Both the position numbers and the translations under genes were made by a program. Under the pieces are notes generated by a model, which saw only the letters and a program-made list of their open reading frames with translations, did no database searches and was not told the origin of the DNA. A stretch of 64,000 bases of DNA from Gordonibacter urolithinfaciens (GTDB lineage Bacteria; Actinomycetota; Coriobacteriia; Coriobacteriales; Eggerthellaceae): positions 1 through 64,000 of the forward strand of contig NZ_LT900217.1 in NCBI RefSeq assembly GCF_900199375.1, in the 5' to 3' direction. Positions 15,791 to 32,514 of the stretch are shown here, in pieces (positions within the stretch are counted from its first letter, which is position 1; each line of letters begins with the position of its first letter).

Positions 15791-16114
15791 CTAGGTGAAC
15801 AGCGCCACCTTGCGCTTGTCCACCTTTGCGCCCAGCTCCTCGAGCGTGCCGTAGTGCAGGCAGCCCGCCTGGCAGTGCTGCACGCAGCTCGGCGCCTTGC
15901 CGGCCGCCTGGCGACGCGCGCAGCGGTCGCAGCGGTCGGTGGGCACGGGCACGAACTCGTACTGCCAGCGGCGCTCGTCCAGCTGGTCGGGGCCGATCTG
16001 GGTCAGCCTGATGCCGAACCGGTCGGGCGCCAGCCCGTGCTCCTGCTGGCAGGCTATCTCGCAGGTGTGGCATCCCGTGCAGAACTCGTAATCGACGGCC
16101 AGGTACTTGCGCAT
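15791..16114 (-). CDS. Two-cluster ferredoxin subunit of the molybdenum enzyme
   Basis: 107 residues with two cysteine groups, CTGCHTCEIAC near residue 12 and CDRC plus CVQHCQAGC further on, enough for two [4Fe-4S] clusters. It is shorter than DmsB (four clusters), so it is a reduced electron-transfer subunit for the catalytic protein encoded just upstream. Three possible starts (GTG 16123, ATG 16120, ATG 16114) cluster at the overlap with the upstream stop. ATG 16114 has GAGGAG at the best spacing (eight bases). Cytoplasmic; no Tat signal. Confidence 0.82.
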   Translation of the reverse strand: MRKYLAVDYEFCTGCHTCEIACQQEHGLAPDRFGIRLTQIGPDQLDERRWQYEFVPVPTDRCDRCARRQAAGKAPSCVQHCQAGCLHYGTLEELGAKVDKRKVALFT

Positions 16115-16119
16115 GGTCA

Positions 16120-18432
16120 TCACTCCTCGATCTTATCGATGCGGCACAGCTGCGACTTGTACGACGCGCCGAGCCCCGACTTGCCCGGCCGCATGGGCAC
16201 GAGCTGGTTGATGTTGCTCTCGAGCGTGCCGAACAGCGTGCCGTCCTCGGGCCCGCGCTCGGGGAACCACCAGCCGTGGTCGGCCGACACCGTGTCCTTG
16301 CGGATGCGCACGCTGGTATGGGCGCGCAGGCGGGCGGAGCCCAGGTTGTTCGAGATGGTGCACCAGTCGCCGTCGGCGATGCCGTAGGCGGCCGCCGTCT
16401 CGGGGTGCACGAGGAACTCGGGCTCGGGGTGCAGGCGCCGCATGGACGGGCTCTGGCGGTGCTCCGAGTGGAAGAAGCCCCACTTGCGCGCGCCGGTGGT
16501 CAGCACGAGCGGGTACTTCTCGGCCAGCTCGGGCGCCGACACCGGGCTCTCGGGCGGCTCCTCGTACGTGGCGAACGGCGAGAAGCCGAAGTAGGCCATC
16601 TCGGCGCAGTAGAAGTTGTAGCGCCCGGTGGACGTGGCGAAGCCGGGCGTCCCGTCGGGGCGCAGCAGCCCCTTCTCGTACTTCTTGTACTCGAACTCGG
16701 GGTAGGCCCACGCACGCTCCTTGAGCGAGTCGTAGGTGAACCCGGTGCTGCGCAGCAGGTAGTCGTAGAAGTCCTGCTCGGAATCCCACGGCCGATGGTC
16801 GCGCCCGGCGAAGCGGTCGCCCAGCTCGTAGATGATGCGCTGGTCGGACTTGCACTCGCCCAGGGGCTCCACCGCCTGCGCGATGGCGCCGAGCGCGTAG
16901 GGCTGGTGCCCGGTGATGCCGATGCGCTCCGCGAAGCACGCGGCGGGCAGCAGCACGTCGGCGCAGGCGAGCGCCGTGGGCGTGAGGAACAGGTCCACCA
17001 CCACGTTGAACTCCATCTTCTGCAGCGCGGGCAGGATGCGCTGGGGCTGGGCGCCCATGCAGGCGATGGCGTTGTTCTGCATCATGAACATGGCCTTGAT
17101 GGGGTAGGGCTCGCCCGTCTCCATGGCCTCGAGCAGGGCGTCGGGGCTGATGCCGTTCATGGCCTCGAGGGCCTTGTAGCCGCCGTGGTTCTTGCGCTCG
17201 GGGTGCGGGATGGGCTCCGAGCACTCGTCCCACACCGAGCCGCGCGGCGACCAGGTGACCGACATGCCGAAGGCGGGGTCGGCCGCGAGCATGCCGCCCG
17301 GGTTCTCGAAGTTGCCGGTGAGCGCCATGAGGTCGAAGCACGCCATGCCGGTGATGAAGCCCTCGGAGGTGTGGTCCATGGCCACGCCCCACTGCAAACA
17401 GCACGACTTCGCGCGGCCGATCTTGCGGGCCGCCTCCACGATGAGGTCCTCGGGCACGCCGCAGGTCTCGGCGGCGAAGCTCACGGGATACTGGCTCACG
17501 TGCTCGGCGAACTCGTCGAAGCCGTAGCACCAGCAGCTCACGAACTCATGGTCGTAGAGATCGTCCTTGATTATCTGATCGCAGAGCGCGAGCGCCAGCG
17601 CCGCGTCGGTGCCGGGGCGCAGCTGGAACCACACGTCGGCCTTGCCCGCGAGCCAGGTGAGCGTGGGGTCCATGACGATGAGCTTGCTGCCGCGCTTCAT
17701 GCTCTCCACCACCCAGTGCCCCAGCGTGCCGTCGGAGTTGGCCACCATCGGGTTGTTGCCCCATACGAGGATGTACTCGGGAGCCTCCCAGCGGGGGTCG
17801 TCGTAGCGGTCGGGGAAGAACTGCGAGTAGTCGCACACGAACAGCCCGCCGCTCTTGAGCGCGGTGGAGAAGATGCGCGGGCCGTAGCAGGCGATGCCCG
17901 ACAGGAAGCCGGTGCCGTAGTTGGGCGTGCCCAGGTACTGGGCCATGAGCGGGCCGTAGCCGTTGATGTCGCGGCCCGTGCCCTGCGTGACCCAGATGGC
18001 CTCGTTGCCGTACTCGTCGATGACGGCCTTCATCTCGCGCTCGATGATATCGTAGGCCTCGTCCCAGCTGATGCGCTCGAACGCATTCTTGCCGCGGTCC
18101 TCCTTCGCGCGCTTCAGGGGGTACTTCAGGCGGTCCTCATGGTAGAGCATCTCCTTGAACGCCAGGCACCTCGGGCAGAGGCGCCCCTGGTTGTAGGGGT
18201 TCTCCGGGTCGCCCTCTATCTTCTCCAGCACGCCGTCCCTCACGTACATGAGCACGCCGCAGTTGTCGTGGCATCCCGGGCCCGTGCGCGCGTTCGTGCG
18301 CAGCACCGTGCAACCGTCCTCCTCCCATTGGCAGACGCGGCCGGTCGGGTCGTCCTGCGTTCGTGCCACCGGCACGTCCCCCTCGGGTGCCGCGGCGCCT
18401 TGCGGGCCCTGCTTCTCAAGCTTCTCGGACAT
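16120..18432 (-). CDS. Molybdopterin oxidoreductase catalytic subunit (DMSO reductase family)
   Basis: 770 residues. An N-terminal [4Fe-4S] site (CHDNCGVLMYVRDGVLEKIE ... RLCPRC) is followed by the molybdopterin domains (RISWDEAYDIIE, ILVWGNNPMVANSDG, GTDAALALALC) and the C-terminal dinucleotide-binding domain (LTTGARKWGFFHSEHRQSP). There is no Tat signal, so it works in the cytoplasm. Eggerthellaceae carry many such enzymes, some of which dehydroxylate catechols; I cannot assign a substrate. The two-cluster ferredoxin gene follows with overlapping stop and start. It is transcribed from the left half of the symmetric promoter region at 18461-18632. Confidence 0.82.
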   Translation of the reverse strand: MSEKLEKQGPQGAAAPEGDVPVARTQDDPTGRVCQWEEDGCTVLRTNARTGPGCHDNCGVLMYVRDGVLEKIEGDPENPYNQGRLCPRCLAFKEMLYHEDRLKYPLKRAKEDRGKNAFERISWDEAYDIIEREMKAVIDEYGNEAIWVTQGTGRDINGYGPLMAQYLGTPNYGTGFLSGIACYGPRIFSTALKSGGLFVCDYSQFFPDRYDDPRWEAPEYILVWGNNPMVANSDGTLGHWVVESMKRGSKLIVMDPTLTWLAGKADVWFQLRPGTDAALALALCDQIIKDDLYDHEFVSCWCYGFDEFAEHVSQYPVSFAAETCGVPEDLIVEAARKIGRAKSCCLQWGVAMDHTSEGFITGMACFDLMALTGNFENPGGMLAADPAFGMSVTWSPRGSVWDECSEPIPHPERKNHGGYKALEAMNGISPDALLEAMETGEPYPIKAMFMMQNNAIACMGAQPQRILPALQKMEFNVVVDLFLTPTALACADVLLPAACFAERIGITGHQPYALGAIAQAVEPLGECKSDQRIIYELGDRFAGRDHRPWDSEQDFYDYLLRSTGFTYDSLKERAWAYPEFEYKKYEKGLLRPDGTPGFATSTGRYNFYCAEMAYFGFSPFATYEEPPESPVSAPELAEKYPLVLTTGARKWGFFHSEHRQSPSMRRLHPEPEFLVHPETAAAYGIADGDWCTISNNLGSARLRAHTSVRIRKDTVSADHGWWFPERGPEDGTLFGTLESNINQLVPMRPGKSGLGASYKSQLCRIDKIEE

Positions 18433-18506
18433 GGCTCCTCCTCGTCATGCGGATGTTCGCCGATGCCCCGATTATAGGAGCGGGAAGGCGCATGCGGGAG
18501 CCGCGT

Positions 18507-18529
18507 TTTCCCGATAGCCTATCGGGAAA
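18507..18529. repeat. Operator-like palindrome 1
   Basis: TTTCCCGATA-GCC-TATCGGGAAA: perfect 10-bp arms with a 3-base centre. It shares the core TTTCCCGAT-N5-ATCGGGAAA with palindrome 2, 57 bases away centre to centre. Closest to the left-facing promoter. Confidence 0.8.
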
Positions 18530-18560
18530 TCCGATCACCCTGATGGCAGGCCGCGTGATC

Positions 18561-18589
18561 GGTTTTCCCGATGACCCATCGGGAAAACC
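18561..18589. repeat. Operator-like palindrome 2
   Basis: Perfect 13-bp arms GGTTTTCCCGATG and CATCGGGAAAACC around ACC. Closest to the right-facing promoter. Together with palindrome 1 it suggests a dimeric activator with one site per promoter. Confidence 0.8.
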
Positions 18590-18758
18590 GCACAAGGGCC
18601 CCGCAGGGGCGCTCCTATAATCGGGGGCATCGAAGACGAACCGCACCGGACAGGTGCTGCTCCCATAACGATTTTCCGCAGGCATTCCCCGCGTGCACTA
18701 CCGCGGCTTCGGCCCCCGAAGGCCGCGTGACCATGGAAGTTGAGAGAGGAGTTCCGTC

Positions 18759-18983
18759 ATGTGCTTCAGACCACCCACCGTCGACAACGGACCCGTGAAG
18801 TGCCCCAAGTGCGGCGCCGAGGTCGACCCGAAGGCCGACGCCTGCCCGAGCTGCGGCGCCAAGGCGGCGCCGATGCCCGGGATCCCCACGCCCCCGGGCG
18901 CTCCCACCCCGCCGCCGGTCCCCGGCGTGCCCGGGGCGCCGAAGGCGCCGAGCGTGCCCAAGCCGCCCGCACCGACCGCGTAG
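18759..18983 (+). CDS. MCFRP zinc-ribbon protein with Pro/Ala tail, copy 1
   Basis: 74 residues in three parts: an N-terminal MCFRPP, a zinc ribbon with CPKCGAEVDPKADACPSCG (two CPxCG knuckles 12 residues apart), and a low-complexity tail rich in Pro, Ala and Gly ending KPPAPTA. GAGAGGAG precedes the ATG. It is the first gene of the transhydroxylase-like operon. A second protein with the same N-terminus, ribbon and tail is encoded at 27068-27298 at the end of another molybdenum-enzyme operon. I do not know its function; metal or chaperone roles for the molybdenum enzymes are possible. An 11-base C run (18999-19009) follows its stop. Confidence 0.8.
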   Translation: MCFRPPTVDNGPVKCPKCGAEVDPKADACPSCGAKAAPMPGIPTPPGAPTPPPVPGVPGAPKAPSVPKPPAPTA

Positions 18984-19057
18984 AACCGCCGGCGCCTGCC
19001 CCCCCCCCCGAGGAGGAAGCACCGGCGCCGGACATCCAGACCAGGAGAGGAGAGAGC

Positions 19058-21682
19058 ATGGGGAACAACGTGTTGGGCACGCCCATCGTGAAGGGCCTGG
19101 GCTTCAACAGCTTCGGCATCGGCACGAACGCGTGCTCGGTCGACATCGACGAGGAGAACGATAAGATACTGCGCATCCGCCCGCTGCGCTTCGACGAGCA
19201 CTACACGCCCGAGGACCTGAACGCCTGGAAGCTCGAGGCCCGCGGAAAGACCTTCGAGCCGGGCTTCAAGACGCTCATCTCGCCGCTGTCGCTGTGCTAC
19301 AAGAAGCGCGTGTACTCGAAGAACCGCATCCCCTACCCGATGAAGCGCGTGGACTGGGACCCGGAGGGCGAGCGCAACCCGCAGAACCGCGGCACGAGCG
19401 GCTACGTGCGCATCAGCTGGGACGAGGCGTGCTCGCTCATCGCCAGCGAGATCAAGCGCGTGCACGAGGCCTACGGGCCCGCGTCGATCCTCTGCGAGCT
19501 CGACGGCCACGGCGAGACGAAGTTCGTCCACGCGCCGCACGGCTGCCAGAGCCGCATGTTCGACCTTATAGGCTCCTACACGCTGCAAACCCGCCAGCCT
19601 GACAGCTGGGAGGGCTGGTACTGGGGCGCGAAGCACATGTGGGGCATGGACCCCTTGGGGCAGAACTCGCAGATGAACAACGTTATCCGCGACGTGGCGC
19701 AAAACGGCGACGCGGTGCTCTTCTGGGGCTGCGACGTGGAGACCACGCCGCTCGGCTGGGGCGGCTACCTGGCCAGCCGCCTGTGCTACTGGTTCACCGA
19801 GCTCGGCATCAAGCAGATCCACATCTCGCCGGACGTGAACTACACCAACGCCGTGCACGCCGACAAGTGGATACCGGTCAAGCCCAACACCGACGCGGCC
19901 CTGCAGCTGGCCATCGCCTACACGTGGATCAAGGAGGGCACCTACGACCAGGCCTACCTCGACACGCACGCCGTGGGCTTCGAGAACTTCAAGTACTACG
20001 TCATGGGCGGCGAGGACGGCGTGCCGAAGACGCCGAAGTGGGCCGAGGCCATCTGCGGCGTGCCCAGCTACACCATCAAGGCGTTCGCACGCTATTGGGC
20101 CAAGCACGCGGTTTCCATCGCGCACTGCAACGGCGGCTCCTACATCCGCTCCTGCTACGCGCACGAGCCGGCGCGCCTCGAGGTGGCGCTCTTGGGCATG
20201 CAGGGCCTGGGCAAGCCGGGCGCCAACCAGTTCAAGTTCATCGAGTGGACGCTCTACGGCATGGACACCGTGACGCCCTTGCCGCCGTCGGTCGAGATCC
20301 CCGACTGCAGCCCGGCCTACCGCGGCTGGTACCGCAGCTTCCCCAAGAGCTTCATCCCCAAGACCATGATCCCCGAGGCCATCATGAACCCGCCCGTCTC
20401 CTGGTACGGCCACATCGGCGCCGGGTTCCCGCGCGAGGACCAGTTCGACGGCCCCTACACGTTCCCCCTCGAGGGCAACGAGCGCCTGCACATGATCTGG
20501 TCGGACACCCCGTGCTGGGAGACGTGCTGGAACGGCGGCAACGAGATGCAGGAGGCCCTGCGCCACCCGTCCATCGAGTTCATCGTCGTGCAGCACCCCT
20601 GGATGGAGAACGACTGCTTCTTCGCCGACGTCATCCTGCCCACGAACACGAAGTTCGAGACGGAGGACATCGGCACGGACTCCGACAACGGCCAGTGGAA
20701 CCTCGTGTACTACGAGCGCCAGGCCATCAAGCCGCGCCTGGAGTCGAAGTCCGACATGGAGGCCGTGGGCGAGGTGGCCAAGGCATTGGAGAAGTTCGGC
20801 GGCATCTACGAGAACCTCTACGAGCGCTACATGGGCGGCAAGACCTGCGAGGAGTACATCCAGGCCGGCTTCGAAAACACGGGCGCAGCCAAGAAGATGG
20901 ACTTCGAGGAGTTCAAGGAGAAGCAGTACTACCCGTTCCCCACGCGCGAGGGGTGGGAGGAGATGCCGGCCGGCCTCATCCAGTTCTACGAGGATCCGGA
21001 GGGGCACCCGCTCCAGACGCCTTCCGGCAAGCTGGAATACTACTCCACGACGCTCGCCAGCCAGTTCCCCGACGATAAGGAGCGCGGGCCCATCCCGCAC
21101 TGGGTCGACGAGGGCGCGGGGCACCAGGAGCGCCAGTACCTGGAGCGCGGCCGGAAGTACCCCTTCCTGCTGGTGTCGAACCACCCGCGGTGGCGCGTGC
21201 ACGCGAACCTCGACGACGTCACCTGGTTCCGCGAGATGGAGGAGACGTGCAAGGTGACGGGCCCCGACGGCTACAAGTACGAGCCGGTGTGGGTGCATCC
21301 GAGCGACGCGGGCCTGCTGGGCCTGGAGACGGGCGACATCGTGAAGCTGTACAACGAGCGCGGCGCGGTGCTGGGCGGCGTGCGTGTGACCGAGCGCATC
21401 ATGCCGAGCGTGGTGTACCAGGACCACGGCAGCCGCGTGGACTCGGTGGTGCTCGGCCGCGGCGGTTTGGACCGCGGCGGCGCGAACAACCTCATCGCGC
21501 CCTACGCCACCACCTCGACGCACGCGTTCGGCGAGGTGACGAGCGGTTTCCTGGTGAACATCGAGAAGGTCGACGTGCTCGCGCTGGCCGCGCAGTACCC
21601 GGAGGCGTTCGGGCGCGACTACGATCCCGGCTGCGGGCTGGTGGCCACGGCGCGCGTCGTCGACGAAGGGGAAGGGGAGTAG
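19058..21682 (+). CDS. Pyrogallol hydroxytransferase-like molybdenum enzyme, large subunit
   Basis: 874 residues of the bis-MGD family. Unlike the enzymes at 16120 and 30016 it has no N-terminal cysteine cluster. That matches the large subunit of pyrogallol-phloroglucinol transhydroxylase, which carries only molybdenum. The segment QPDSWEGWYWGAKHMWGMDP (Asp 182, Ser 183) fits my recollection of the Asp-Ser pair at the molybdenum of that enzyme. Other motifs are YVRISWDEACSLI, HAPHGCQSRMFD and VSNHPRWRVHANLDD. No Tat signal. A small subunit follows two bases later. The substrate could be a pyrogallol or catechol; the catechol dehydroxylases of Eggerthellaceae are related in family, so function is inferred only. 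Confidence 0.75.
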   Translation: MGNNVLGTPIVKGLGFNSFGIGTNACSVDIDEENDKILRIRPLRFDEHYTPEDLNAWKLEARGKTFEPGFKTLISPLSLCYKKRVYSKNRIPYPMKRVDWDPEGERNPQNRGTSGYVRISWDEACSLIASEIKRVHEAYGPASILCELDGHGETKFVHAPHGCQSRMFDLIGSYTLQTRQPDSWEGWYWGAKHMWGMDPLGQNSQMNNVIRDVAQNGDAVLFWGCDVETTPLGWGGYLASRLCYWFTELGIKQIHISPDVNYTNAVHADKWIPVKPNTDAALQLAIAYTWIKEGTYDQAYLDTHAVGFENFKYYVMGGEDGVPKTPKWAEAICGVPSYTIKAFARYWAKHAVSIAHCNGGSYIRSCYAHEPARLEVALLGMQGLGKPGANQFKFIEWTLYGMDTVTPLPPSVEIPDCSPAYRGWYRSFPKSFIPKTMIPEAIMNPPVSWYGHIGAGFPREDQFDGPYTFPLEGNERLHMIWSDTPCWETCWNGGNEMQEALRHPSIEFIVVQHPWMENDCFFADVILPTNTKFETEDIGTDSDNGQWNLVYYERQAIKPRLESKSDMEAVGEVAKALEKFGGIYENLYERYMGGKTCEEYIQAGFENTGAAKKMDFEEFKEKQYYPFPTREGWEEMPAGLIQFYEDPEGHPLQTPSGKLEYYSTTLASQFPDDKERGPIPHWVDEGAGHQERQYLERGRKYPFLLVSNHPRWRVHANLDDVTWFREMEETCKVTGPDGYKYEPVWVHPSDAGLLGLETGDIVKLYNERGAVLGGVRVTERIMPSVVYQDHGSRVDSVVLGRGGLDRGGANNLIAPYATTSTHAFGEVTSGFLVNIEKVDVLALAAQYPEAFGRDYDPGCGLVATARVVDEGEGE

Positions 21683-21684
21683 CC

Positions 21685-22506
21685 ATGGGCAAGGTGTTCG
21701 TGTTCGACGTCGCCAAGTGCAACGGGTGCCGCAACTGCCAGATAGCCTGCAAGGACGAGCACGTGGACAACGACTGGTCGCCCATCGCGAGGCCGCAGCC
21801 CGACACGGGCCACTTCTGGTGCCGCATAGAGGAGCGCGTGCGCGGCCAGGTGCCGAAGGTGAGGGTGTCCTACGTCATGCACCGCTGCCAGCACTGCGCC
21901 GACGCGCCCTGCATGGCCGCGGCGCCCGAGGCGGTCTACCGCCGCGAGGACGGCCTGGTCATCGTGGACCCGGAGAAGGCGGCCGGGAGGCGCGACCTCG
22001 TGGAGGCGTGCCCCTACGGCGCGATCTTCTGGAACGGGGAGCTGGGCATCCCGCAGAAGTGCACCGGCTGCGCCCACCTCGTGGACGCCGGCGAGGTCCC
22101 GCACTGCGTGGACGTGTGCCCGCACGGCGCCCTGCGCTTCGGCGACGAGGAGGACCTCGCCGAGGAGATCGCGGCGGCGGAGGCCCTCGTGCCCGAGCGC
22201 GCCGCCGCCGACAAGCCGCGCGTATTCTACCTGAACCTGCCGAGGCGCTTCCTGGCCGGCGTCGTTGTGGACCCGGAGGCCGACGAGGTGGTGGCCGGCG
22301 CGAGGGTCACGGCCGAGAACCTGGCCACGGGCGAGGTGCTGGCGGCCGAGGCCGACGAGTTCGGCGACTTCTGGTTCCACCAGGTGGGCGCCGCCGAGTG
22401 GCGCGTGTACGCGGAGGCGGAGGGCTACCTCACCCGCGTGCTGGAGGCCTCGACCGTGGACGAGGACCGCAACATGGGCCCGGTCGAGCTGTACCGGGCA
22501 GAGTAG
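21685..22506 (+). CDS. Transhydroxylase-like iron-sulfur small subunit with Cna-type domain
   Basis: 273 residues. Residues 1-195 hold twelve ligand-type cysteines (CNGCRNCQIAC, CQHCADAPC, EACPYG, CTGCAHL ... CVDVCPHG), enough for three [4Fe-4S] clusters, not the four of DmsB; the fourth cysteine of the second group is Ala. Residues from about 200 form a separate beta-rich domain (AGVVVDPEADEVVAGARVTA, DFWFHQVGAAEWRVYAEAEG) like the Cna-type barrel at the end of the transhydroxylase small subunit. This domain plan is the strongest sign that the operon encodes a transhydroxylase relative. Translation is coupled to the large subunit. Confidence 0.8.
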   Translation: MGKVFVFDVAKCNGCRNCQIACKDEHVDNDWSPIARPQPDTGHFWCRIEERVRGQVPKVRVSYVMHRCQHCADAPCMAAAPEAVYRREDGLVIVDPEKAAGRRDLVEACPYGAIFWNGELGIPQKCTGCAHLVDAGEVPHCVDVCPHGALRFGDEEDLAEEIAAAEALVPERAAADKPRVFYLNLPRRFLAGVVVDPEADEVVAGARVTAENLATGEVLAAEADEFGDFWFHQVGAAEWRVYAEAEGYLTRVLEASTVDEDRNMGPVELYRAE

Positions 22507-22514
22507 CCGACGAA

Positions 22515-22628
22515 CCAGGGGCCGACTGTGGCCGGCCCCTGGAAGAAGAGCCTGGGAACGGCGGCCCGCCCTTGGCGGGGCCGCCGTCGAAGGGGGCTCG
22601 CATGCGCGACGTTGGCGGATGCGAGCCC
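22515..22628 (+). other. Three consecutive RNA hairpins between subunit and transporter genes
   Basis: CCAGGGGCCG / CGGCCCCTGG (22515-22542), a GGCGGCCC...GGGCCGCC type stem (about 22561-22586) and GGGCTCGCAT / ATGCGAGCCC (22594-22628). None is followed by a T run, so they look like stability or processing elements, or a staged attenuator, rather than plain terminators. A TATAAC box at about 22631 could start a separate transporter transcript. Confidence 0.6.
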
Positions 22629-22724
22629 GATATAACACGACGCGGCCGCGCTCGGGGGAAGGAGGCGGGAGGCGCGGCTTCTACAGGGGATCTGCCACGT
22701 TCTTTCTTTAAGGAGGAGAGACAA

Positions 22725-24158
22725 ATGGCACAAGAAGCGTTAACGAAGTTCTTCAGCAAAGAGGGGTTCCTGAACAAGAGGGGATTGGGCATCGTCATAG
22801 CCGTGGCCATCCTCGTGGTAGCATCGTTCGTGCCCGAGTCGCCCGACCTGTCCCACCAGGGCATCATGGCCATCGCATCGCTCTTGTTCGCCGTGTCGCT
22901 GTGGGTATGCGGCTCGTTCTCCGTGGGCGTGACGGGCATTCTGGCCCTCGTCATAGCCGTGGTCATGGGCGCGACCGACTACAAGGCCGTGTTCAGCGGG
23001 TTCGGCGTGTCGGTGGTGTTCTACGTCATCGCCATCTTCGCGCTGCCGGCGCTGCTGCTCAAGACGCAGTGGGGCGTGCGCCTCGTGGCCAAGCTGTTCA
23101 AGCTGACGGGGGAGAGCTCCGAGAAGCTCATCCTCGCGTTCATGATCGGCACGTGCCTCATCTCCACCATCATGTCCGACGTGCCTGCCGCGGTGCTGTT
23201 CATGGGTATTTCCTACGTCGTGCTCAAGGCGGCCGGCGCCCAGCCCGGCAAGTCGCGGCTCGGCAAGTGCATGATGATCGCCATCCCCATCGCTGCCGTC
23301 ATCGGCGGCGTGGTCACACCGGCCGGCAGCTCGTTCAACATGGTGGCCATGGGCGTGCTCACCGGCGCCACCGGCCAGACTATCAGCTTCCTGAACTGGA
23401 TCATCGTGGGCCTGCCCATCGCCATCCTGTGCATCCCGCTGTGTTGGTTCTCCATCGTGAAGATCCTCAAGCCCGAGCAGCTCGACTCGAGCGCCTACGA
23501 CAGCCTGCGCCAGGCGGCCGAGGACGCCGGCAAGCCCACGGGCTTCGAGGTGCGCGCGCTCGTCATGATCCTCGCGCTGCCCGTGCTATGGATCCTCGGC
23601 ACGTGGATTCCGCTGCTGAACGTCACGACCGTGGCCATCATCGGCCTGGCCATCATGATGTTCCCCGGCCTGAACCTGCTCACGTGGGACGAGTTCAGCA
23701 AGCAGGTGCCCTGGACCATCATCCTCATGATGGGCTCGGTGCTGTCGCTCGGCAACATCTTCAGCGCCTCGGGCGCCGACAAGTTCGTCACGAACCTGTT
23801 CATGAGCAGCGGCGTGGCCGACCTGAACTTCACGGTGTTCCTGTTGATCACCGTTGCGTTCATCTACCTGCTGCACACCATCGCCCCGGTGGGCGCGGCC
23901 ATCATCAGCCTGTTTTTGCCCATCCTCATCGGCATCTGCACGACGCTCGGCGTCTCCCCGGCCATCCCCACGATGCTGCTCGCCTTCATCGTGGCCGGCA
24001 ACTTCCTCTTGCCGGTGAACCCGACGCTCATCGTCACGTACGGCGAGGGGTACTACACGTTCGGCGACATGTTCAAGGCCGGTGTGATCCCCGCCATCAT
24101 CTTCTGCGTGTGCATGGTGCTCTGGGTGCCGTTCATCTGCGGCGTGCTGGGACTGTAG
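22725..24158 (+). CDS. DASS/SLC13-type anion transporter
   Basis: 477 residues with about 12 membrane helices. The paired sodium-binding signatures are recognisable as TPAGSSFNMVAMG in the first half and LLPVNPTLIVTYGEGYY in the second. The family moves di- and tricarboxylates or sulfate with sodium. Its position directly after the transhydroxylase-like subunits suggests it imports the substrate or a related anionic aromatic or organic acid. AAGGAGGAG is eight bases before the ATG, and a strong terminator follows at 24205-24235. Confidence 0.8.
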   Translation: MAQEALTKFFSKEGFLNKRGLGIVIAVAILVVASFVPESPDLSHQGIMAIASLLFAVSLWVCGSFSVGVTGILALVIAVVMGATDYKAVFSGFGVSVVFYVIAIFALPALLLKTQWGVRLVAKLFKLTGESSEKLILAFMIGTCLISTIMSDVPAAVLFMGISYVVLKAAGAQPGKSRLGKCMMIAIPIAAVIGGVVTPAGSSFNMVAMGVLTGATGQTISFLNWIIVGLPIAILCIPLCWFSIVKILKPEQLDSSAYDSLRQAAEDAGKPTGFEVRALVMILALPVLWILGTWIPLLNVTTVAIIGLAIMMFPGLNLLTWDEFSKQVPWTIILMMGSVLSLGNIFSASGADKFVTNLFMSSGVADLNFTVFLLITVAFIYLLHTIAPVGAAIISLFLPILIGICTTLGVSPAIPTMLLAFIVAGNFLLPVNPTLIVTYGEGYYTFGDMFKAGVIPAIIFCVCMVLWVPFICGVLGL

Positions 24159-25622: not shown

Positions 25623-26879
25623 TCAGAGATCGAAATAATACGAATGCAGCAGGTACCCCTGCCCGTAGCGGGCAGCTAGCTTCTCCAGCCGCCGCTTCAC
25701 CGCGCCGAGGCCTGCCTGCCCGAGCTCGTAGCGTTCCATGAGCCGCGCGAACGACGCGCGCTCGCGGGCGGTGGCGAGCCCCGACACGTAGCCCCACACG
25801 TGCTGCGCCGCGTTGCGTCCGCCGCCCCGTGTGGGCGGGAGGGCGAGGGCGCCGTCGACCAGGCGGTAGAACTCCTGCACCGGATAGGCATCCTTGTCCT
25901 TCAGCAGGTTCCTCACCTGCTGGTACGCCGCCTGGTCGCGCTCGAGCACGCTGTACTTGCACGTCGCCCACGCCCGTTCGAGCGCTGCCGCCGTGCCGTG
26001 CTCGTCGAGGACGTTCAGGCACTTCAACGCCGACGCGTTCTTGTCCTTCACCTCCAGCATCACGTCGGGGGCCCGCCCTTCGAGCGACGCAGCGAAAGCA
26101 AGGAACCCGTCAAGGCCTATCGTGTCGGTGTGGCTGCCGTGCCTCCTGCCCGGCGCCTGCTGCGCGTAGTGCACCTTCTGCGGTCCGTCCTGCGGCCCCC
26201 AGGTACGCGCCGCCGCATCGAGGAGCTCGAGCTCTCCCCGGCCGCCAGGGTCGTGGTTCAGCCGATGGTGGAGCACGTCGAACACCATCGGGATGCCGCA
26301 GGCCGCGCTCGCCGCCAGCGCGTCCTCGGCCGTGAACAGGCGGTCGTCGTTCTCGACGACCAGCCGTCGGCGCACGCCCGCATCCAGTTCGCGGCAGCGT
26401 GCGACGAAGCGCCTCAAGGCGGTTTTCTTGTCGCCGTAGGCGCCGCCCACGTGCAGGACGACCTTGGCCTCGGCGCCGGTGCCCAGCGCGTCGAGGAAGG
26501 CCGCGTGGTAGGCCAGGTCCGCCACGGCGCGGCGCACGACATCGTCGTCGGGGGAGTTCAGCACCGTGTACTGCCCCGGGTGCATGCTGAGGCGCACCCG
26601 GTTCTCGGCGGCCAGCTCCCCGATGGCCGCGAGCCGCTCCCCGAACGCATGCGCCCAGTCCAGGCGGTTCGCCGGGCTCGACCCGAACGGGATGACGTCC
26701 GAGCCTATGCGGAAGAGCCGGATGCCGTTGGCTCCGCAGTAGCGGACGACCGCCTCCAGCGCCGACAGGTTGGCGCCGATGGCCTCCGCCAGCCGCTCGT
26801 CGCTCGCGTTCCGCATGACCAGGGAACGCATGCGCCCCTCGGGAAGACCGAGCGTCTTCGATGCGTACCCGATGTTCAT
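25623..26879 (-). CDS. uvsE: UV damage endonuclease UvsE/UVDE
   Basis: 418 residues with a TIM-barrel nuclease fold. Typical stretches are MNIGYASKTL at the start, RLFRIGSDVIPFGSS, LSMHPGQYTVLNSP and LVVENDDRLFTAEDAL, followed by FDVLHHRLNHD; the His, Asp and Glu residues bind the divalent metals. It nicks DNA 5' of UV photoproducts in a repair route separate from UvrABC. The C-terminal 120 residues extend beyond the core nuclease. It stands downstream of the third molybdenum operon but is unrelated to it. Confidence 0.85.
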   Translation of the reverse strand: MNIGYASKTLGLPEGRMRSLVMRNASDERLAEAIGANLSALEAVVRYCGANGIRLFRIGSDVIPFGSSPANRLDWAHAFGERLAAIGELAAENRVRLSMHPGQYTVLNSPDDDVVRRAVADLAYHAAFLDALGTGAEAKVVLHVGGAYGDKKTALRRFVARCRELDAGVRRRLVVENDDRLFTAEDALAASAACGIPMVFDVLHHRLNHDPGGRGELELLDAAARTWGPQDGPQKVHYAQQAPGRRHGSHTDTIGLDGFLAFAASLEGRAPDVMLEVKDKNASALKCLNVLDEHGTAAALERAWATCKYSVLERDQAAYQQVRNLLKDKDAYPVQEFYRLVDGALALPPTRGGGRNAAQHVWGYVSGLATARERASFARLMERYELGQAGLGAVKRRLEKLAARYGQGYLLHSYYFDL

Positions 26880-27067: not shown

Positions 27068-27298
27068 TTAGGCCTTTGGGACGTTGGGGGCCTTCGGAGC
27101 CGAGGGGGAGGCAGGCGGCTTCGGGGCAGCCGGGGCTGCGGGAAGCGGCTTCTCTCCCTTCAAATAGGGGACGAGATCGCATCGGCAGTGCGGGCACCTC
27201 TTCAAGACGATGCCGCTCAGCACCTGGATATCCTGGCCGCACTCGGGGCATTTGCTCGAGCTTGCGTCTGCCGACGCATCGGCTGGTCTGAAGCACAT
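27068..27298 (-). CDS. MCFRP zinc-ribbon protein with Pro/Ala tail, copy 2
   Basis: 76 residues: MCFRPADASADASSSK, a zinc ribbon with CPECGQDIQVLSG then CPHCRCD, and a tail of Pro, Ala and Lys ending PSAPKAPNVPKA. AAGGAG is eight bases before the ATG. It matches the protein at 18759 in its first five residues, ribbon and tail composition, but the ribbon loop sequence differs. It ends the operon DmsA-like, DmsB-like, VOC, MFS. Function unknown to me; the repeated link with molybdenum-enzyme operons is the only clue. Confidence 0.8.
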   Translation of the reverse strand: MCFRPADASADASSSKCPECGQDIQVLSGIVLKRCPHCRCDLVPYLKGEKPLPAAPAAPKPPASPSAPKAPNVPKA

Positions 27299-27387
27299 GG
27301 CTACCACTCCTTTTCGAGCCCTACCCGGGCACCGCCGCGCTTTGCGGACGGCGCCCGGCCTTGAACGCTGGCTTTCCGTTGCCGTCT

Positions 27388-28572
27388 CTACCTGAACTTG
27401 CACAGGGCAAGCGCTGCGGTGCCGGCGAAGCCGATCACGCACATCACGATGCCGGTGAGCATCCACGAGGATACGTCGGGCCCGAGTAGCAGGGGGACCA
27501 GCCAGGTGCCCAGGAACTGGCCGAGGCTCTGCACCAGCATGAGCACGCCCATGCCGATGGACATGAGCTCCGGGCGGCCCAGGACGTTGATGTACGACGT
27601 CAGGCACATGACCGGTCCGCCCAAGCCCACGAGGCCCATGACGATGGCGCCGACCCACATCAAAGGGCCGGTCTGGGTGAGCAGGAGCAGCGTGCAGGGT
27701 CCCATGACGAGCATTGCGGCCAGGTACAGCGGCTTGCAGCGGCCCAGCTTGTCGGACAGAGCGCCGAACAGCGGGGACGATATGACGGCGAGCAGCATGG
27801 GAAGCGTGCTGACGAAGCCGGACAGCGTCGGGTCGACGCCCTGCTGCTGCAAGAAGGTGGGGCCGAAGCTCAGCACCGCCATCAGCGTCATGTTGAAGAC
27901 GAGGAAGGCGGCGAAGAACAGCAGGATGTTCGGCTTCACGAGCTCGCCGTAACCCACCTTCCCCTCTGTAGGAGCGTCCGCGGCCCCCTCGAGCGCCTCG
28001 CCGGGGTTCTTGACGATCACGGCGACCACGATGGCGAACACCACGGCCGCGGCGGCGTAGATCACCCACACGCCCGCGAAACCGGTGGAAGCGTACAGCG
28101 TGGGGGTCAGCACGCCGCCGACCACCGAACCGAGGCAGACCCAGAGCGCCCAGATGCCCGTCGCGGAACCGATCTTGTCGGGGGAGACGTACTTCTGCAC
28201 GGCCAGGGGGCCGCAGATGGTCACGAAGATGAACGCCACGCCCTCGATGGCGCGGGAGACGATGAGAACCATGCCGTTGCCCGCGAAGGCGCCCAGCAAC
28301 GAACCGACTGCGATGATCGCGGCAGCGGCGAGCAGCATGGTCTTCGGGCCGAACCTCTTCGCGAGCGCCCCCGTGGGAAGCGCCAGGATAATGCCCACGA
28401 ACGTGAAGATGGACATGAGCCACGAAGCGGAGCTCGCATCCATGCCCATGTTCGCCATGATGTCGCCCATGACGACGGGAACCTTGAACTGGATCGTGGC
28501 GATAGCCGTTCCGAACAGGAGCATGACGACGGCGATCAGCGCCCAGTTCCCGTATTTCTTACTGGTGCTCAT
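27388..28572 (-). CDS. MFS transporter in a molybdenum-enzyme operon
   Basis: 394 residues, 12 helices, loop motifs GALAKRFGPKTMLLAA and GALSDKLGRCKPLYLA. Very like the MFS protein at 24286 (shared QFKVP, IWALW..GS.VGGVLTPT and SLGQFLG stretches). It is probably the uptake or exchange carrier for the substrate of the enzyme encoded at 30016. GGAGGAGG is seven bases before the ATG. About 140 bases separate it from the VOC gene and hold a small TTTTCGC / GCGAAAA stem. Confidence 0.82.
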   Translation of the reverse strand: MSTSKKYGNWALIAVVMLLFGTAIATIQFKVPVVMGDIMANMGMDASSASWLMSIFTFVGIILALPTGALAKRFGPKTMLLAAAAIIAVGSLLGAFAGNGMVLIVSRAIEGVAFIFVTICGPLAVQKYVSPDKIGSATGIWALWVCLGSVVGGVLTPTLYASTGFAGVWVIYAAAAVVFAIVVAVIVKNPGEALEGAADAPTEGKVGYGELVKPNILLFFAAFLVFNMTLMAVLSFGPTFLQQQGVDPTLSGFVSTLPMLLAVISSPLFGALSDKLGRCKPLYLAAMLVMGPCTLLLLTQTGPLMWVGAIVMGLVGLGGPVMCLTSYINVLGRPELMSIGMGVLMLVQSLGQFLGTWLVPLLLGPDVSSWMLTGIVMCVIGFAGTAALALCKFR

Positions 28573-28712
28573 AAGGCACCTCCTCCTTTGGTGTTTCGCA
28601 TGCACGAACCAGGCCCTTCGCTAAAAAGGCGATACCTTCGGCATTTTTTTCGCCTCCTCGTTGCGAAAAGCCTGGAAGCGAGAGCGGGTTGGACCTTTGC
28701 TGCCCTTTCGGC

Positions 28713-29174
28713 CTACAACGCCCTTAGGTTGTCCTGCACGGCTTCGAAACGCTCGCCGCCGGGGCCGCGGAAGAACATGATCTTAAGCTGCGCACCCCCT
28801 TCGCCGCAGACGGTGAAGACGTCGGCGTCGTCGCCTGCCAGGGGACGGTCGAACTCCAAGGGCGGGTCGAACGGGCCCGCCTCGACGGCGACGCCCTTCT
28901 CGCCCAGATGCGCGACGAAGCCGTCCATGTCGTCCACGCGCAGCGCCACGTGGTTAAGGCAGTTCGCGGCGGCCTCGCACGTGCGCTTGTCCTCGCATTC
29001 CAGCAGCTCGAAGACAAGATCCCCCCTCATGGCCCATGCCATCTTGAGCGGCTTGTCGCCCTCCAAAGCGTCCGACCTGAACAGCAGCCTGCAGCCGAGC
29101 ACGTCCTCGTAGAACGTTATGGACTCCTCGATATCGCGGCAGTAGATCCCTGCATGATGAAAGACCGATTCCAT
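28713..29174 (-). CDS. VOC-superfamily (glyoxalase-like) protein
   Basis: 153 residues with two beta-alpha-beta-beta-beta units. The first metal-ligand region is HHAGIYCRDIEESITFYEDV and the second NHVALRVDDMDGFV, with a final acidic residue in the C-terminal strands. VOC proteins include dioxygenases, glyoxalases and binding proteins, so the reaction cannot be named. In this operon, between a molybdenum enzyme and a transporter, it might handle a product or bind the substrate. Confidence 0.75.
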   Translation of the reverse strand: MESVFHHAGIYCRDIEESITFYEDVLGCRLLFRSDALEGDKPLKMAWAMRGDLVFELLECEDKRTCEAAANCLNHVALRVDDMDGFVAHLGEKGVAVEAGPFDPPLEFDRPLAGDDADVFTVCGEGGAQLKIMFFRGPGGERFEAVQDNLRAL

Positions 29175-29267
29175 GGGTTCCCCCTATCGCATGCATTCGG
29201 CAAGAGGCGGGATGCGCGGCGCATGAGTTCCGGCCGCCGTGCATCCCGCGATGATGGCTCGTTGACG

Positions 29268-30014
29268 CTATCCTTGGTCGCTCGACGTGGCGGCCATGAC
29301 CTCGGCCACGGTGGCGTTCTTCATGCGCAGCTCGCGGATGCACATGACGTCGGCGCCGAACTCCGTGACGCTGTCGCAGTCGCCCGCGTACACGTCGTCG
29401 GTGGCGGTGCGGCGCTTGGTGAGCTGGACGGCCTTTTCCGCATCGTAGGGAACGAGCTGCTCCTTGGGCGGGTTCGCCTTGGCGACCCAGTTGGGCATGG
29501 TCAGCTCGGGATCGGGCATGGTCTCTATCTGGCGCACGTCGCCGTACTTCTCCACCAGCTCGTCGATGGGGCCGAAGTCCAGGGCGCGCATCGGGCAGGA
29601 GGCCACGCACAGGGGCAGCTGGCCCTTCTCCAAGCGGTCGATGCACAGGGTGCATTTGCTCATCTTGGTGCCGGGCTCGTCGCTCGCGAACTTCGGCGCA
29701 CCGTAGGGGCAGGCCTGGAAGCAGTTGCGGTCGCCCTGGCACTTGTCCTGGTCAACCAGCACGGCGCCGTACTTTTCCTCCTTGAAGATCGCGCCGTGCT
29801 CGCAGGCGGAGGCGCACACGGGGTTGTCGCAATGCCCGCAGCTGAAGGCCAGGATGCCGATGGACGTGAGCGGGAACGCGTTTTTCTCCCACATGTAGAC
29901 GCTCATCCACTTCTCGGGGCCGGGTGCGATGTCGTACCAGTCCTTGCAGGCCACCGAGCAGGCCTTGCAGCCGTAGCAGCGTCCCTGGTCGAAGAAGAAT
30001 CCGTACTGGGCCAT
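29268..30014 (-). CDS. DmsB-like four-cluster ferredoxin subunit with a Cys-to-Asp change
   Basis: 248 residues. Cysteine groups in order are CYGCKACSVAC, CGHCDNPVCASAC, CQGDRNCFQACPYG and CTLCIDRLEKG...CVASC. In the third group the second cysteine is Asp (CQGD instead of the usual CxGC). One of the four clusters may therefore be a [3Fe-4S] or Asp-ligated cluster with a shifted potential. It passes electrons to the catalytic subunit encoded immediately upstream, one base away. GGGAG is seven bases before the ATG. Cytoplasmic, since neither subunit has a Tat signal. Confidence 0.85.
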   Translation of the reverse strand: MAQYGFFFDQGRCYGCKACSVACKDWYDIAPGPEKWMSVYMWEKNAFPLTSIGILAFSCGHCDNPVCASACEHGAIFKEEKYGAVLVDQDKCQGDRNCFQACPYGAPKFASDEPGTKMSKCTLCIDRLEKGQLPLCVASCPMRALDFGPIDELVEKYGDVRQIETMPDPELTMPNWVAKANPPKEQLVPYDAEKAVQLTKRRTATDDVYAGDCDSVTEFGADVMCIRELRMKNATVAEVMAATSSDQG

Positions 30015-30015
30015 G

Positions 30016-32514
30016 TTATTCTCCCACCTTCCTGATCTCCACGAGGCCGGCCGTCAGCAGCGCGCCCACCACATGCGGCAGGTGCGTGTCGCCTATGAGG
30101 AGGTTGCAGTTGCCGGCTTCGTCGATGCCGTAGGGCATGAGCTTGGACTTCCTGACGTTGTCGAACTTGGACCATTCGCCATGCCCGATGGACACGGTGC
30201 CGGGCAGCAGCTTCGACGAGACGTACGCGGTGATCTCCACTTCGCCGAACTGGTTGTACACCAGCACGCGGTCGCCCGTCTTGATGCCGCGGTCGGCGGC
30301 GTCGGCGGGGGACATGCGCACCATATGCTCGTAGCAGTCGCCCTTGAGCCAGGGGTTCTGGTCGTTGGACGAGTGCTGGCGGTACGTGGACACCGGCGTG
30401 ACCATGGACAGCGGGAAGTTCTTCGTCCACGGGTGGTAGTAGCTGTCGTTCGCGGGCAGGTCCTGGTAGGTGGGCTGCCAGCGCGGGTAGGCGTCCATCT
30501 GCCCGCCGTAGCGGGTCTTCGTCAGGTCGTTGCCCTTCACGAAGGAGCTCTCGAACTCTATCTTGCCGGACGGCGTCTTGAAGGGGGAGCGGCCCCATTC
30601 GACCGTGTTCTTGAAGGGGTAGAACCACTCGCCGGGCTCGCCGGGAACGCGGACGATGGGCAGCTTCTGGAACTCCTCCCATGAGGGCGGCTCCACCTCG
30701 TAGTAGCCCAGAAGGCCGTTCTCGTCCTCGGCCCACTTCTCGTAGGCCGGCTTGTAGATACGCTCGATGACCTGCTCGTCCCAGTCGCGCCAGTCGGTCA
30801 CGTCGAGCATCTTCGGGCAGTACTTGTCGGCGAAGCCGAGGCGGCGGGCCAGCTCCATCCAGACCCAGTCCTTCGAACGGACCTCGCCCGGGGGGTTCAC
30901 GCCCTTGCCGGCGAACAGGAAGTAGTTCATCATGCCGGACGGCGAGTTCCAGAAGCGGTTGATGCCGAAGAAGTGCATGTCCGTGGACTCGAACTGGATG
31001 ACGGGGGAGGGCAGCACGATGTCGAGGAACTCGATGGAGGGCTGGTCGTGGAAGTACTGCCAGCCCCAGGAGAACTCCATGTCCGCGAAGCCCTGCATGC
31101 GCTTGGACACATGATGCTGGTTGTTGATGTAGTTGTTCGGGATGATGGCCATCTTCAGGTTCGGCAGCGGGCTGTCGGCCGGGCAGCCGATGCGGCGGCG
31201 GAACTCGTCCTCGGTGATCTCGCCGGCAGCGTAGAGCTTCTGGCAGTGCATGACCTCGGTCACCTTGTTGTTGTTATTGGTGATGGGGTTCACCACGTCG
31301 CCCTTGATCTGGCCGGTGTCGGGCACGGGCGCGAAGAGGCGGGGCTGGGTCACCAGGTTGGCACCGCCGCCCTCGCAGCCGCCGGGAATGGACAGGTTGC
31401 CGGTCATAGCCTGCAGGAGCATGGCCACGGCGGCGGCGTAGTCGCCCAGGTTGCGCTTGGACACGCCGTACATCTGCTGCAGGTGGACGGGCTTCATGGA
31501 CGCGTAGTAGCGGGCGAAGGCCCCGATGGTCTCGGCCGGGATGCCGGTGATCGGCTCGGCCCATTCAGGAGTGTGAGCAACGCCGTCCACCTCGCCGACG
31601 ACGTACTTGCGCCACTCCTCGAAGCCATCGGGCTCCACCCACTGCGCCACGTACTCGTGGTCGTAGAGGTCCTCGGTGTAGAGCACGTAGGCCACCGCCA
31701 GGCCGAACGCCGTGTCGGTTCCGGGGCGGATGGGTATCCACTGGGCGCCCAGGGCCTCGGCGCTCACGTTGTACACCGGGTCGATCAGGATGAACTTGCA
31801 GCCGCGCTCCTGGGCCAGCTTCATGTAGTAGGGCACGTGGCCGAACCAGGACACCATGGGATCGAAGCCCCACAGCACCACGAGCTTGGAGTTCAGCAGG
31901 TCGGGGGCCTCGAAGCCGGGGAATGCGTCGGACGTTCCCTTGATGAGGCAGTCGGTGAGGCGCACGCCCAGGTGGAAGTCCTCGGCGGCGGCGCTGCCGG
32001 AGGTCGAGTGGTCGCCCCAGCCGGTGATGGTGCCCGGCATGTAGGAGGCGAACGGGAAGTCGGAGCTCTCGAACGCCACGTAGTAGCAGTAGTACAGCCA
32101 GGGATGGTCGGGGTTCTCCTCGGCCATCTGCTTCATCTTGCCCGCGATGGTGTCGAGCGCCTCGTCCCAGGAGATGCGCTCGAAACGACCCTTGCCGGAG
32201 CCTTTCCCGCCCACGCGCTTCATGGGGTACAGCAGGCGGTTCTCCGAGTAGAGCTCCTGGCGCCACGCATGGCCCATGGGGCAGGCGCGCGCCTGGAGCA
32301 TGCCGGTCTGGACGGCGTTCTCGTCGTCGTCCTCGCGGGCGACGCCCGGGTTCACCGAGTCGTCGGGCTCAATGGCGATGATTTTGTCATCCTTAACGCT
32401 GCACTTGATCAGGCAGGTGGCGTCCCAACAACCGTTGTTGTGGCAGGTGGTGTAGAAGTAATCGACCCCCTCGTGACGCTCGCCTAGTTTCTCGACTACC
32501 GATTCCCTTGACAT
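30016..32514 (-). CDS. Molybdopterin oxidoreductase catalytic subunit, DmsA-like
   Basis: 832 residues. The N-terminal [4Fe-4S] site is CHNNGCWDATCLIKC with a later RACPMGH. The molybdenum domain carries GWGDHSTSGSAAAEDFHLG, where a serine is the likely metal ligand as in DMSO and TMAO reductases, then VVLWGFDPMVSWFG and RPGTDTAFGLAVAYV. The C-terminal dinucleotide domain ends the protein. There is no Tat signal and no DmsC-type anchor in the operon, so electrons probably come from a soluble or separate carrier. Substrate unknown; the VOC and MFS neighbours suggest a small organic substrate taken up by the MFS protein. Confidence 0.82.
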   Translation of the reverse strand: MSRESVVEKLGERHEGVDYFYTTCHNNGCWDATCLIKCSVKDDKIIAIEPDDSVNPGVAREDDDENAVQTGMLQARACPMGHAWRQELYSENRLLYPMKRVGGKGSGKGRFERISWDEALDTIAGKMKQMAEENPDHPWLYYCYYVAFESSDFPFASYMPGTITGWGDHSTSGSAAAEDFHLGVRLTDCLIKGTSDAFPGFEAPDLLNSKLVVLWGFDPMVSWFGHVPYYMKLAQERGCKFILIDPVYNVSAEALGAQWIPIRPGTDTAFGLAVAYVLYTEDLYDHEYVAQWVEPDGFEEWRKYVVGEVDGVAHTPEWAEPITGIPAETIGAFARYYASMKPVHLQQMYGVSKRNLGDYAAAVAMLLQAMTGNLSIPGGCEGGGANLVTQPRLFAPVPDTGQIKGDVVNPITNNNNKVTEVMHCQKLYAAGEITEDEFRRRIGCPADSPLPNLKMAIIPNNYINNQHHVSKRMQGFADMEFSWGWQYFHDQPSIEFLDIVLPSPVIQFESTDMHFFGINRFWNSPSGMMNYFLFAGKGVNPPGEVRSKDWVWMELARRLGFADKYCPKMLDVTDWRDWDEQVIERIYKPAYEKWAEDENGLLGYYEVEPPSWEEFQKLPIVRVPGEPGEWFYPFKNTVEWGRSPFKTPSGKIEFESSFVKGNDLTKTRYGGQMDAYPRWQPTYQDLPANDSYYHPWTKNFPLSMVTPVSTYRQHSSNDQNPWLKGDCYEHMVRMSPADAADRGIKTGDRVLVYNQFGEVEITAYVSSKLLPGTVSIGHGEWSKFDNVRKSKLMPYGIDEAGNCNLLIGDTHLPHVVGALLTAGLVEIRKVGE

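Follow-up and report, generated by a model that had tools for sequence, protein, structure and literature searches.

The window, meaning the whole 64,000-nucleotide stretch of the Gordonibacter urolithinfaciens genome analysed here, carries two small genes whose products begin with the pentapeptide MCFRP, each within its own molybdenum (Mo) enzyme operon. Copy 1 (18759-18983) has an ATG start with a GGAG-type Shine-Dalgarno sequence and a ribbon of the form CPKC...CPSC. Judged by gene order in the window, it is the first gene of an operon on the plus strand (18759-24158) that runs MCFRP, Mo subunit, Fe-S subunit and DASS-type transporter. Copy 2 is the last gene of an operon lying entirely on the minus strand, in the order Mo subunit, Fe-S subunit, VOC protein, MFS transporter and MCFRP (27068-32514). 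Both ORFs and both gene orders confirmed the original prediction, which had described an MCFRP start, a double CPxC ribbon and a Pro/Ala tail in the product of 18759-18983 and in a second protein, and had assigned the two copies to different Mo operons, one as the first gene and the other as the last. Between the two operons lies a minus-strand gene (25623-26879) whose product combines a UvdE (UV endonuclease) domain with DUF1722. A PLSDB search for plasmid carriage of copy 1 returned 0 matches.

Table 1 Features of the two molybdenum operons in the window and of two Sporomusa fusion genes.
Feature	Coordinates	Strand	Remarks
MCFRP copy 1, 74 aa	18759..18983	+	MCFRP, double CPxC zinc ribbon, Pro/Ala/Gly tail
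Mo catalytic subunit	19058..21682	+	PF00384, PF01568, AhtL-like PF21423; no Tat signal seen
[4Fe-4S] subunit, 273 aa	21685..22506	+	Fer4_11 and CarboxypepD_reg
DASS/CitMHS-type transporter	22725..24158	+	
Divergent Mo subunit, 770 aa	16120..18432	-	No Tat signal seen
[4Fe-4S] subunit, 107 aa	15791..16114	-	Adjoins divergent Mo subunit 16120-18432
MCFRP copy 2, 76 aa	27068..27298	-	Ribbon CPEC...CPHC
MFS transporter	27388..28572	-	
VOC/glyoxalase-fold protein	28713..29174	-	
[4Fe-4S] subunit, 248 aa	29268..30014	-	
Mo catalytic subunit, 832 aa	30016..32514	-	No Tat signal seen
MCFRP, ribbon and two VOC/glyoxalase domains	L144:4412-5269	+	Sporomusa silvacetica; Mo and Fe-S genes precede
MCFRP, ribbon and two VOC/glyoxalase domains	L161:6908-7765	-	Sporomusa sp. 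KB1

The catalytic subunit encoded behind copy 1 (19058-21682) scored 39.9 against AhtL-like domain 1 (PF21423), above the cut-off of 27, and its closest solved relative was the large subunit of pyrogallol hydroxytransferase (4v4c, E = 4.8e-120), marking it by domain and structure match as a candidate pyrogallol hydroxytransferase-like enzyme. For the divergent subunit (16120-18432), the closest solved relative was acetylene hydratase (2e7z, E = 3.7e-85). The cluster spanning 15791-24158 has a genomic duplicate at approximately 2453996-2463784, with identities of 84-93% for the Mo and Fe-S genes and 68% for the transporters. Between the MCFRP ORF at 18759 and its duplicate at 2460423, only 3 of 225 bases are different (about 99% identical), although their flanks are unlike; the small ORF has likely undergone gene conversion within the duplicated cluster.

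Profile comparisons identified the ribbon and little else. Copy 1 reached 29.9 bits against Zn_Ribbon_1 (PF13240; cut-off 25 bits) and copy 2 remained below it at 11.5, while among 52 members compared at E <= 0.001, 38 matched DZR (PF12773) and 35 matched Zn_Ribbon_1. The ribbon domain itself is thus common to these families and the MCFRP proteins, whereas the MCFRP start, the tail and the genomic link fall outside the DZR and Zn_Ribbon_1 models, which have 45 and 23 positions, respectively. HypA (PF01155) gave 16.8 and 15.6 bits for the window copies, below its cut-off of 28.9, and matched two of the 52 members at E <= 0.001. HypA combines a short N-terminal metal-binding motif with a double-CPxC ribbon, and in HypC the N-terminal Cys2 is essential. 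A motif placed N-terminally on a ribbon and an essential Cys2 serve here purely as a working analogy, as the partner of HypA and HypC is a hydrogenase and that of MCFRP is a Mo enzyme. In NCBIfam, no model scored above its cut-off for the two window copies or 10 further members, and the best E-value across the 52 members was 2.4e-7, to ribosomal L40e. The best 60 of 153 matches in a PDB profile search were to ribbons, to zinc fingers, to collagen-like repeats and, at chance level, to a few other proteins. The curated libraries returned generic zinc ribbons and unrelated matches only, and no description of the family was found in a literature search whose coverage excluded most subscription papers and all supplements; the word "zinc" was absent from the main text of the papers that were term-searched. 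The MCFRP proteins therefore apparently constitute an undescribed family, no curated family in the libraries searched covering their plan, as had been suspected from the sequence.

The start pattern ATGTGYTTYMGNCC had 18 matches in the 3.29-Mb genome and 0 in the reversed control, so the matches are not due to chance. Inclusion of a GTG-start VCFRP copy (411276) and an MCYRP copy (2426191) brings the family to 20 members in this genome, all of which begin with [M/V]-Cys-[Phe/Tyr]-Arg-Pro, followed by a linker of variable length, and 19 of which have the four ribbon cysteines. A ribbonless MCFRP protein with a Pro/Gly/Ala tail is encoded at 591801-592013; because intact ribbonless counterparts with 84% and 87% identity occur in two further Gordonibacter genomes, it is no local accident. 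At one G. pamelaeae 7-10-1-b locus, one protein was identical to that encoded at 1785353 and another differed by one residue from that at 1785708.

To describe the distribution of the family, we combined profile searches with a pattern scan. In the same taxonomic family, 56 of 60 genomes had a match at E <= 0.001, with up to 30 per genome, although this loose threshold probably also catches other ribbons. At E <= 1e-9, matches were found in 29 of 296 genomes of the class and in 3 of 396 genomes of a phylum sample, the window genome being included in both counts; tailless members could be missed at this threshold because the profile includes the tail. The scan of named genomes, confined to the small gene and requiring MCFRP and the first cysteine pair, yielded at least 120 stretches, and the 120 listed correspond to 123 ORFs of at least 30 aa from 118 loci. 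Three of the 123 (L138, L148:432 and L176) are by eye chance matches in which the ribbon is not in frame. Since the pentapeptide and the first cysteine pair were themselves search criteria, its constancy in this set partly reflects selection and is not independent evidence.

Outside the class, the matches listed came from Sporomusa, Peptococcaceae, Gracilibacteraceae and Ca. Formimonas, as well as from Desulfosarcina, Desulfuromonas, Desulfuromusa and another deltaproteobacterium. Members from the Coriobacteriia carry long flexible tails. Among the 17 Sporomusa and Peptococcaceae ORFs listed, 13 are only 38-54 aa long and tailless, two have a second CxxC ribbon (74 aa) and two (286 aa) have two VOC domains behind the ribbon. 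The listed deltaproteobacterial members vary, with a Pro-rich tail in L095 and L155 and none in L117 and L166. That the tail is a working part, which the original prediction had offered as one possibility, is unlikely, given that most of the 17 are so short and that the others carry a second ribbon or VOC domains instead. We accordingly rejected the tail and the ribbon as essential parts, the short Bacillota members being tailless and the protein ending at 592013 ribbonless. MCFRP itself looks like the core, as the tail is missing from most Sporomusa and Peptococcaceae members and the ribbonless copy has been kept in three Gordonibacter genomes. The Sporomusa fusions, together with the separate VOC gene in the copy 2 operon, make a functional connection of MCFRP with VOC proteins possible. 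A further fusion was seen in Raoultibacter timonensis (L078:1602-3254, minus strand), in which MCFRP and the ribbon are joined to FMN_bind and to a FAD_binding_2 part without its first third.

We then quantified the association with Mo enzymes. The window genome contains 69 PF00384 matches, which merge to 65 ORFs; that a single 3.29-Mb genome holds about 65 such ORFs is an observation in its own right. Of its 20 MCFRP genes, 10 have a PF00384 gene within 0.5 kb, 12 within 1 kb, 16 within 2.5 kb and 19 within 5 kb; for random positions the corresponding shares are 7.0, 8.7, 13.4 and 20.1% (p = 9.5e-13 for the 5-kb distance). In 18 of the 19 cases, MCFRP shares its strand with the nearest Mo gene. 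In a genome of a second genus (G050), 12 of the 14 MCFRP copies listed had a PF00384 match no more than 3 kb away, against an expectation of 14.3%; here 16 MCFRP ORFs were counted inside Mo neighbourhoods and 19 by profile search at E <= 0.001, and 59 of 62 PF00384 matches were counted, three being pieces of the same ORFs. Among the named loci, a Mo-enzyme match was present in the same locus for 95 of the 123 ORFs listed (94 of 120 without the chance matches, as L176 belongs to the 95), and the nearest such match was on the same strand in 87 of these 95. Chance backgrounds for proximity apply to the window genome and G050, not to the named loci. The remaining 28 of the 123 listed ORFs had no Mo match in their locus, which locus ends explain in part but not entirely: L078, L088, L098, L111, L114, L149 and L150 either sit at the end of a locus or are accompanied by an Fe-S match, and L089, L107, L110, L120 and L147 have no Mo match in the few kb covered. 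Two gene orders recur, as in the window, with MCFRP either ahead of the Mo and Fe-S genes or behind both.

Collectively, these counts establish a solid genomic link between MCFRP genes and Mo enzymes, and homologues do not occur mainly away from such enzymes, an outcome that the original prediction had named as one that would refute it. An incidental neighbourhood, in which a small housekeeping protein hitch-hikes with recently expanded clusters, would be consistent with the recent duplication of one MCFRP-containing cluster and with the copy at 735208-735447, which lies near ribosomal-protein genes, more than 5 kb from any Mo gene, and is matched by a similarly placed counterpart in Ca. Gordonibacter avicola (L089). 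Yet the link recurs outside the class, for example in Sporomusa and Desulfuromusa, where 18 of the 25 listed non-coriobacterial family ORFs have a Mo match (11 of 14 from the first 80 loci and 7 of 11 from the other 40), and MCFRP is absent beside Tat enzymes in two genera, as detailed below. Conservation across groups already disfavours this explanation, which we regard as very improbable.

In these two genomes of different genera, the association is restricted to enzymes that lack a Tat signal. None of the 17 Tat Mo enzymes in the window genome has an MCFRP gene within 5 kb, compared with 24 of the 48 non-Tat ones (p = 9.3e-5); the figures for G050 are 0 of 21 and 18 of 38, respectively (p = 6.6e-5). 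The rows are not fully independent, since several Mo genes can share one MCFRP gene. Tat calls followed our own motif and hydrophobicity rule, which varied somewhat between the window-genome, the Mantel and named-locus, and the G050 and G003 counts. By eye, 725578 was recoded from Tat to non-Tat because its likely N-terminus has no Tat signal; 1061359 was counted as Tat; and 255296, 1553177, 1554864, 140720, 2445701 and 696193, with doubtful N-termini or frames, were kept as non-Tat among the 65 and excluded from the tree described below. Among the named loci listed, none of the 80 nearest Mo partners with an uncut N-terminus had a Tat motif. Genome G003, which serves as a natural control, yielded no MCFRP match in a profile search even at E <= 0.001, and of the 35 Mo enzymes counted in it, 29 belong to the Tat type (35 of 37 PF00384 matches were counted, two being pieces); by eye, the six non-Tat ones comprise three that resemble formate dehydrogenase or other classic types, two cut matches and one other type. 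We therefore rejected a link to Mo enzymes in general, as neither G003, with its 35 PF00384 enzymes, nor Tat enzymes are accompanied by MCFRP. The proposed tie to Mo enzymes thus stood for 19 of 20 copies but narrowed from Mo enzymes at large to the non-Tat ones.

In a tree of 59 Mo enzymes, those linked to MCFRP were spread over several lineages; examples are a transhydroxylase-like group, the 30016/300903 pair, a large group resembling acetylene hydratase, and 1690631, whose partner in the tree is the Tat enzyme 1708105. A phylogeny-controlled version of the Tat comparison had only four supported contrasts, of which three agreed, none disagreed and one was neutral (p = 0.25), a number too small to reach significance. 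Since 24 of the 48 non-Tat Mo enzymes in the window genome have no MCFRP gene within 5 kb, MCFRP is not needed in cis by all of them, and the helpers could act in trans or be dispensable for some enzymes. No MCFRP start was found at a cluster near 3.0 Mb formed by two of these 24 (3005375 and 3015622, flanking amidohydrolase 3013838), which, from what is available of PMC12771579, may be the ellagic-acid cluster of that report. Other small Cys-rich, ribbon-like proteins without MCFRP are encoded near non-Tat Mo enzymes at 2426509-2426841, 2403812-2404048 and 1693545-1693823.

TorD-type chaperones displayed the opposite distribution. Like MCFRP genes, those for TorD/DmsD/NarJ proteins (PF02613) adjoin individual Mo enzymes, but TorD accompanies the exported Tat enzymes whereas MCFRP accompanies the non-Tat ones: in the window genome, 13 of the 17 Tat enzymes and 4 of the 48 non-Tat ones had a PF02613 gene no more than 5 kb away. 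Few MCFRP genes are near a TorD gene (0 of 20 within 2.5 kb and 1 of 20 within 5 kb); the copy at 3160067, a point against a clean division, lies together with both a Mo enzyme and a TorD gene. The MCFRP proteins themselves gave no PF02613 match among the 20 families matched by copy 2 at E <= 1, the best 25 of 38 families matched by copy 1 or the 21 families to which the 52 members gave matches at E <= 0.001. For the exported Dadh of E. lenta, the available text of PMC11887054 describes dadhD-H as indispensable and the TorD-type DadhF of the dadh cluster as needed for Dadh activity. Catechol dehydroxylases of the cytosolic G. pamelaeae type belong to the same class as the MCFRP partners, with no Tat signal, a small Fe-S protein and MFS neighbours according to the accessible parts of PMC7028382 and PMC12771579, in which the small MCFRP gene is not mentioned.

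With Cys at position 2, the initiator Met is probably removed, which would leave the MCFRP proteins with a free N-terminal Cys. On our best reading, whose biochemical side is inferred, the MCFRP proteins would be accessory factors, probably for enzyme maturation. The absence of MCFRP from Tat enzymes, which mostly have TorD, suggests that the two fill corresponding roles. Our leading reading, tentative and held with slightly less than even confidence, is that they are accessory factors for cytosolic, non-Tat bis-MGD enzymes whose N-terminus docks during cofactor or Fe-S loading. Their clients would be members of the DMSO-reductase (bis-MGD) superfamily, for example catechol-dehydroxylase-like, transhydroxylase-like and acetylene-hydratase-like enzymes. 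The Cys-Phe-Arg-Pro N-terminus exposed after Met removal, usually borne on a small zinc ribbon, may form the contact point; the common target may be the immature Mo subunit or the cofactor-delivery machinery; and the factor would act while cofactor or Fe-S clusters are loaded, the stage at which exported enzymes would rely on TorD-type chaperones. The Pro/Ala tail would then be a flexible linker or tether only. A more far-reaching version, which we consider possible but doubtful, is a dedicated cytosolic maturation system for Mo/W bis-MGD enzymes, the counterpart of TorD, in which the free Cys-Phe-Arg-Pro would guide or retain the cofactor, or else a ligand of the active site, during loading. 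The conserved active element would in that case be the free peptide, borne by a ribbon, by a tail or by the two together.

Whether each MCFRP protein is matched to its own partner bears on these readings. In the window genome, ribbon and partner distances correlated weakly in a Mantel comparison (r = 0.19, p = 0.03), and removal of the recent duplicate abolished this (r = 0.01, p = 0.45), so that one-to-one partner specificity was rejected. The correlation over 52 named pairs among the loci listed (r = 0.32, p = 0.001) could arise from common descent. The within-genome null fits a factor with a common target and fits a generic regulator equally well. It speaks against MCFRP being a small subunit with a structural or electron-transfer role in the mature cytosolic Mo complex, with the CxxC pairs holding Zn or rubredoxin-type Fe. 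That idea draws on the adjacency of MCFRP genes to those for the catalytic and Fe-S subunits and on a weak match of copy 1 to RUBY_RBDX; rubrerythrin-type rubredoxin domains also have the CxxC-x(9-14)-CxxC spacing in common with these ribbons. The match, at 14.7 bits, is nevertheless under the rubredoxin-like cut-off of 26.5, copy 2 was not among the matches listed, and one conserved member has no ribbon. Twenty copies for 48 non-Tat enzymes, a varying place in the operon and the missing within-genome co-variation are more readily explained by a helper acting on a common target than by a subunit. The published Gp Hcdh also has only two subunits, as far as the available text of PMC11585353 describes it, and we judge a subunit role unlikely.

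Zinc ribbons often bind nucleic acid, and the best 60 of 153 PDB profile neighbours include ribosomal and RNA-polymerase ribbons, so MCFRP could alternatively be an operon-linked regulator or a substrate-responsive zinc-ribbon protein acting on RNA or DNA, a position ahead of the Mo gene in some operons being consistent with this. Against it, many operons have MCFRP behind the Mo and Fe-S genes, the ribbon can be missing, and such clusters often have regulators of their own, including LysR-like genes recognized by eye and a LuxR type (PMC12771579, available portion). We consider such a role quite unlikely. Still less probable, in our view, is a tether, in which the MCFRP peptide and the Pro/Ala tail would join cytosolic enzymes with one another or with importers: MFS or DASS transporter genes do adjoin the enzymes and Coriobacteriia members have long flexible tails, but 13 of the 17 Sporomusa and Peptococcaceae ORFs listed are short and have no tail of this kind. 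An accessory factor for cytosolic Mo enzymes remains the reading we favour.

Cytosolic Mo enzymes of the Gordonibacter type convert dietary polyphenols, as in steps from ellagic acid to urolithins (PMC12771579, in part), and work on catechol dehydroxylases has been hindered by the missing heterologous expression system, according to the accessible text of PMC11887054. A candidate accessory gene for the cytosolic type, present in 20 copies in one genome, makes enzyme maturation directly testable, and the candidate factor may help the expression of cytosolic catechol dehydroxylases and of transhydroxylase- and acetylene-hydratase-like enzymes. Intracellular Mo enzymes may thus have in this tiny protein, present in many copies in some gut bacteria and in other anaerobes, a helper that had been missing.

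The codons of the start region are themselves biased. Arg4 is encoded by AGA in 19 of the 20 copies in the window genome and by AGG in one (window sites 18759-18773 and 27284-27298), whereas across 127 other called genes AGA makes up 1.0% of all Arg codons and 6 of the 30 at codons 2-6. Among named loci with GC >0.57, Arg4 was AGA or AGG in 56 of 57 cases from the first 80 loci listed and in 78 of 80 from all 120 listed, one of the exceptions being a chance match. Pro5 is CCA in 12 of 20 copies, compared with a background of 3.5%. When CGC was substituted at codon 4, the start region folded more stably in 50 of 57 cases. The simplest reading of the bias is selection for an open start region, but it is larger than the bias in other genes.
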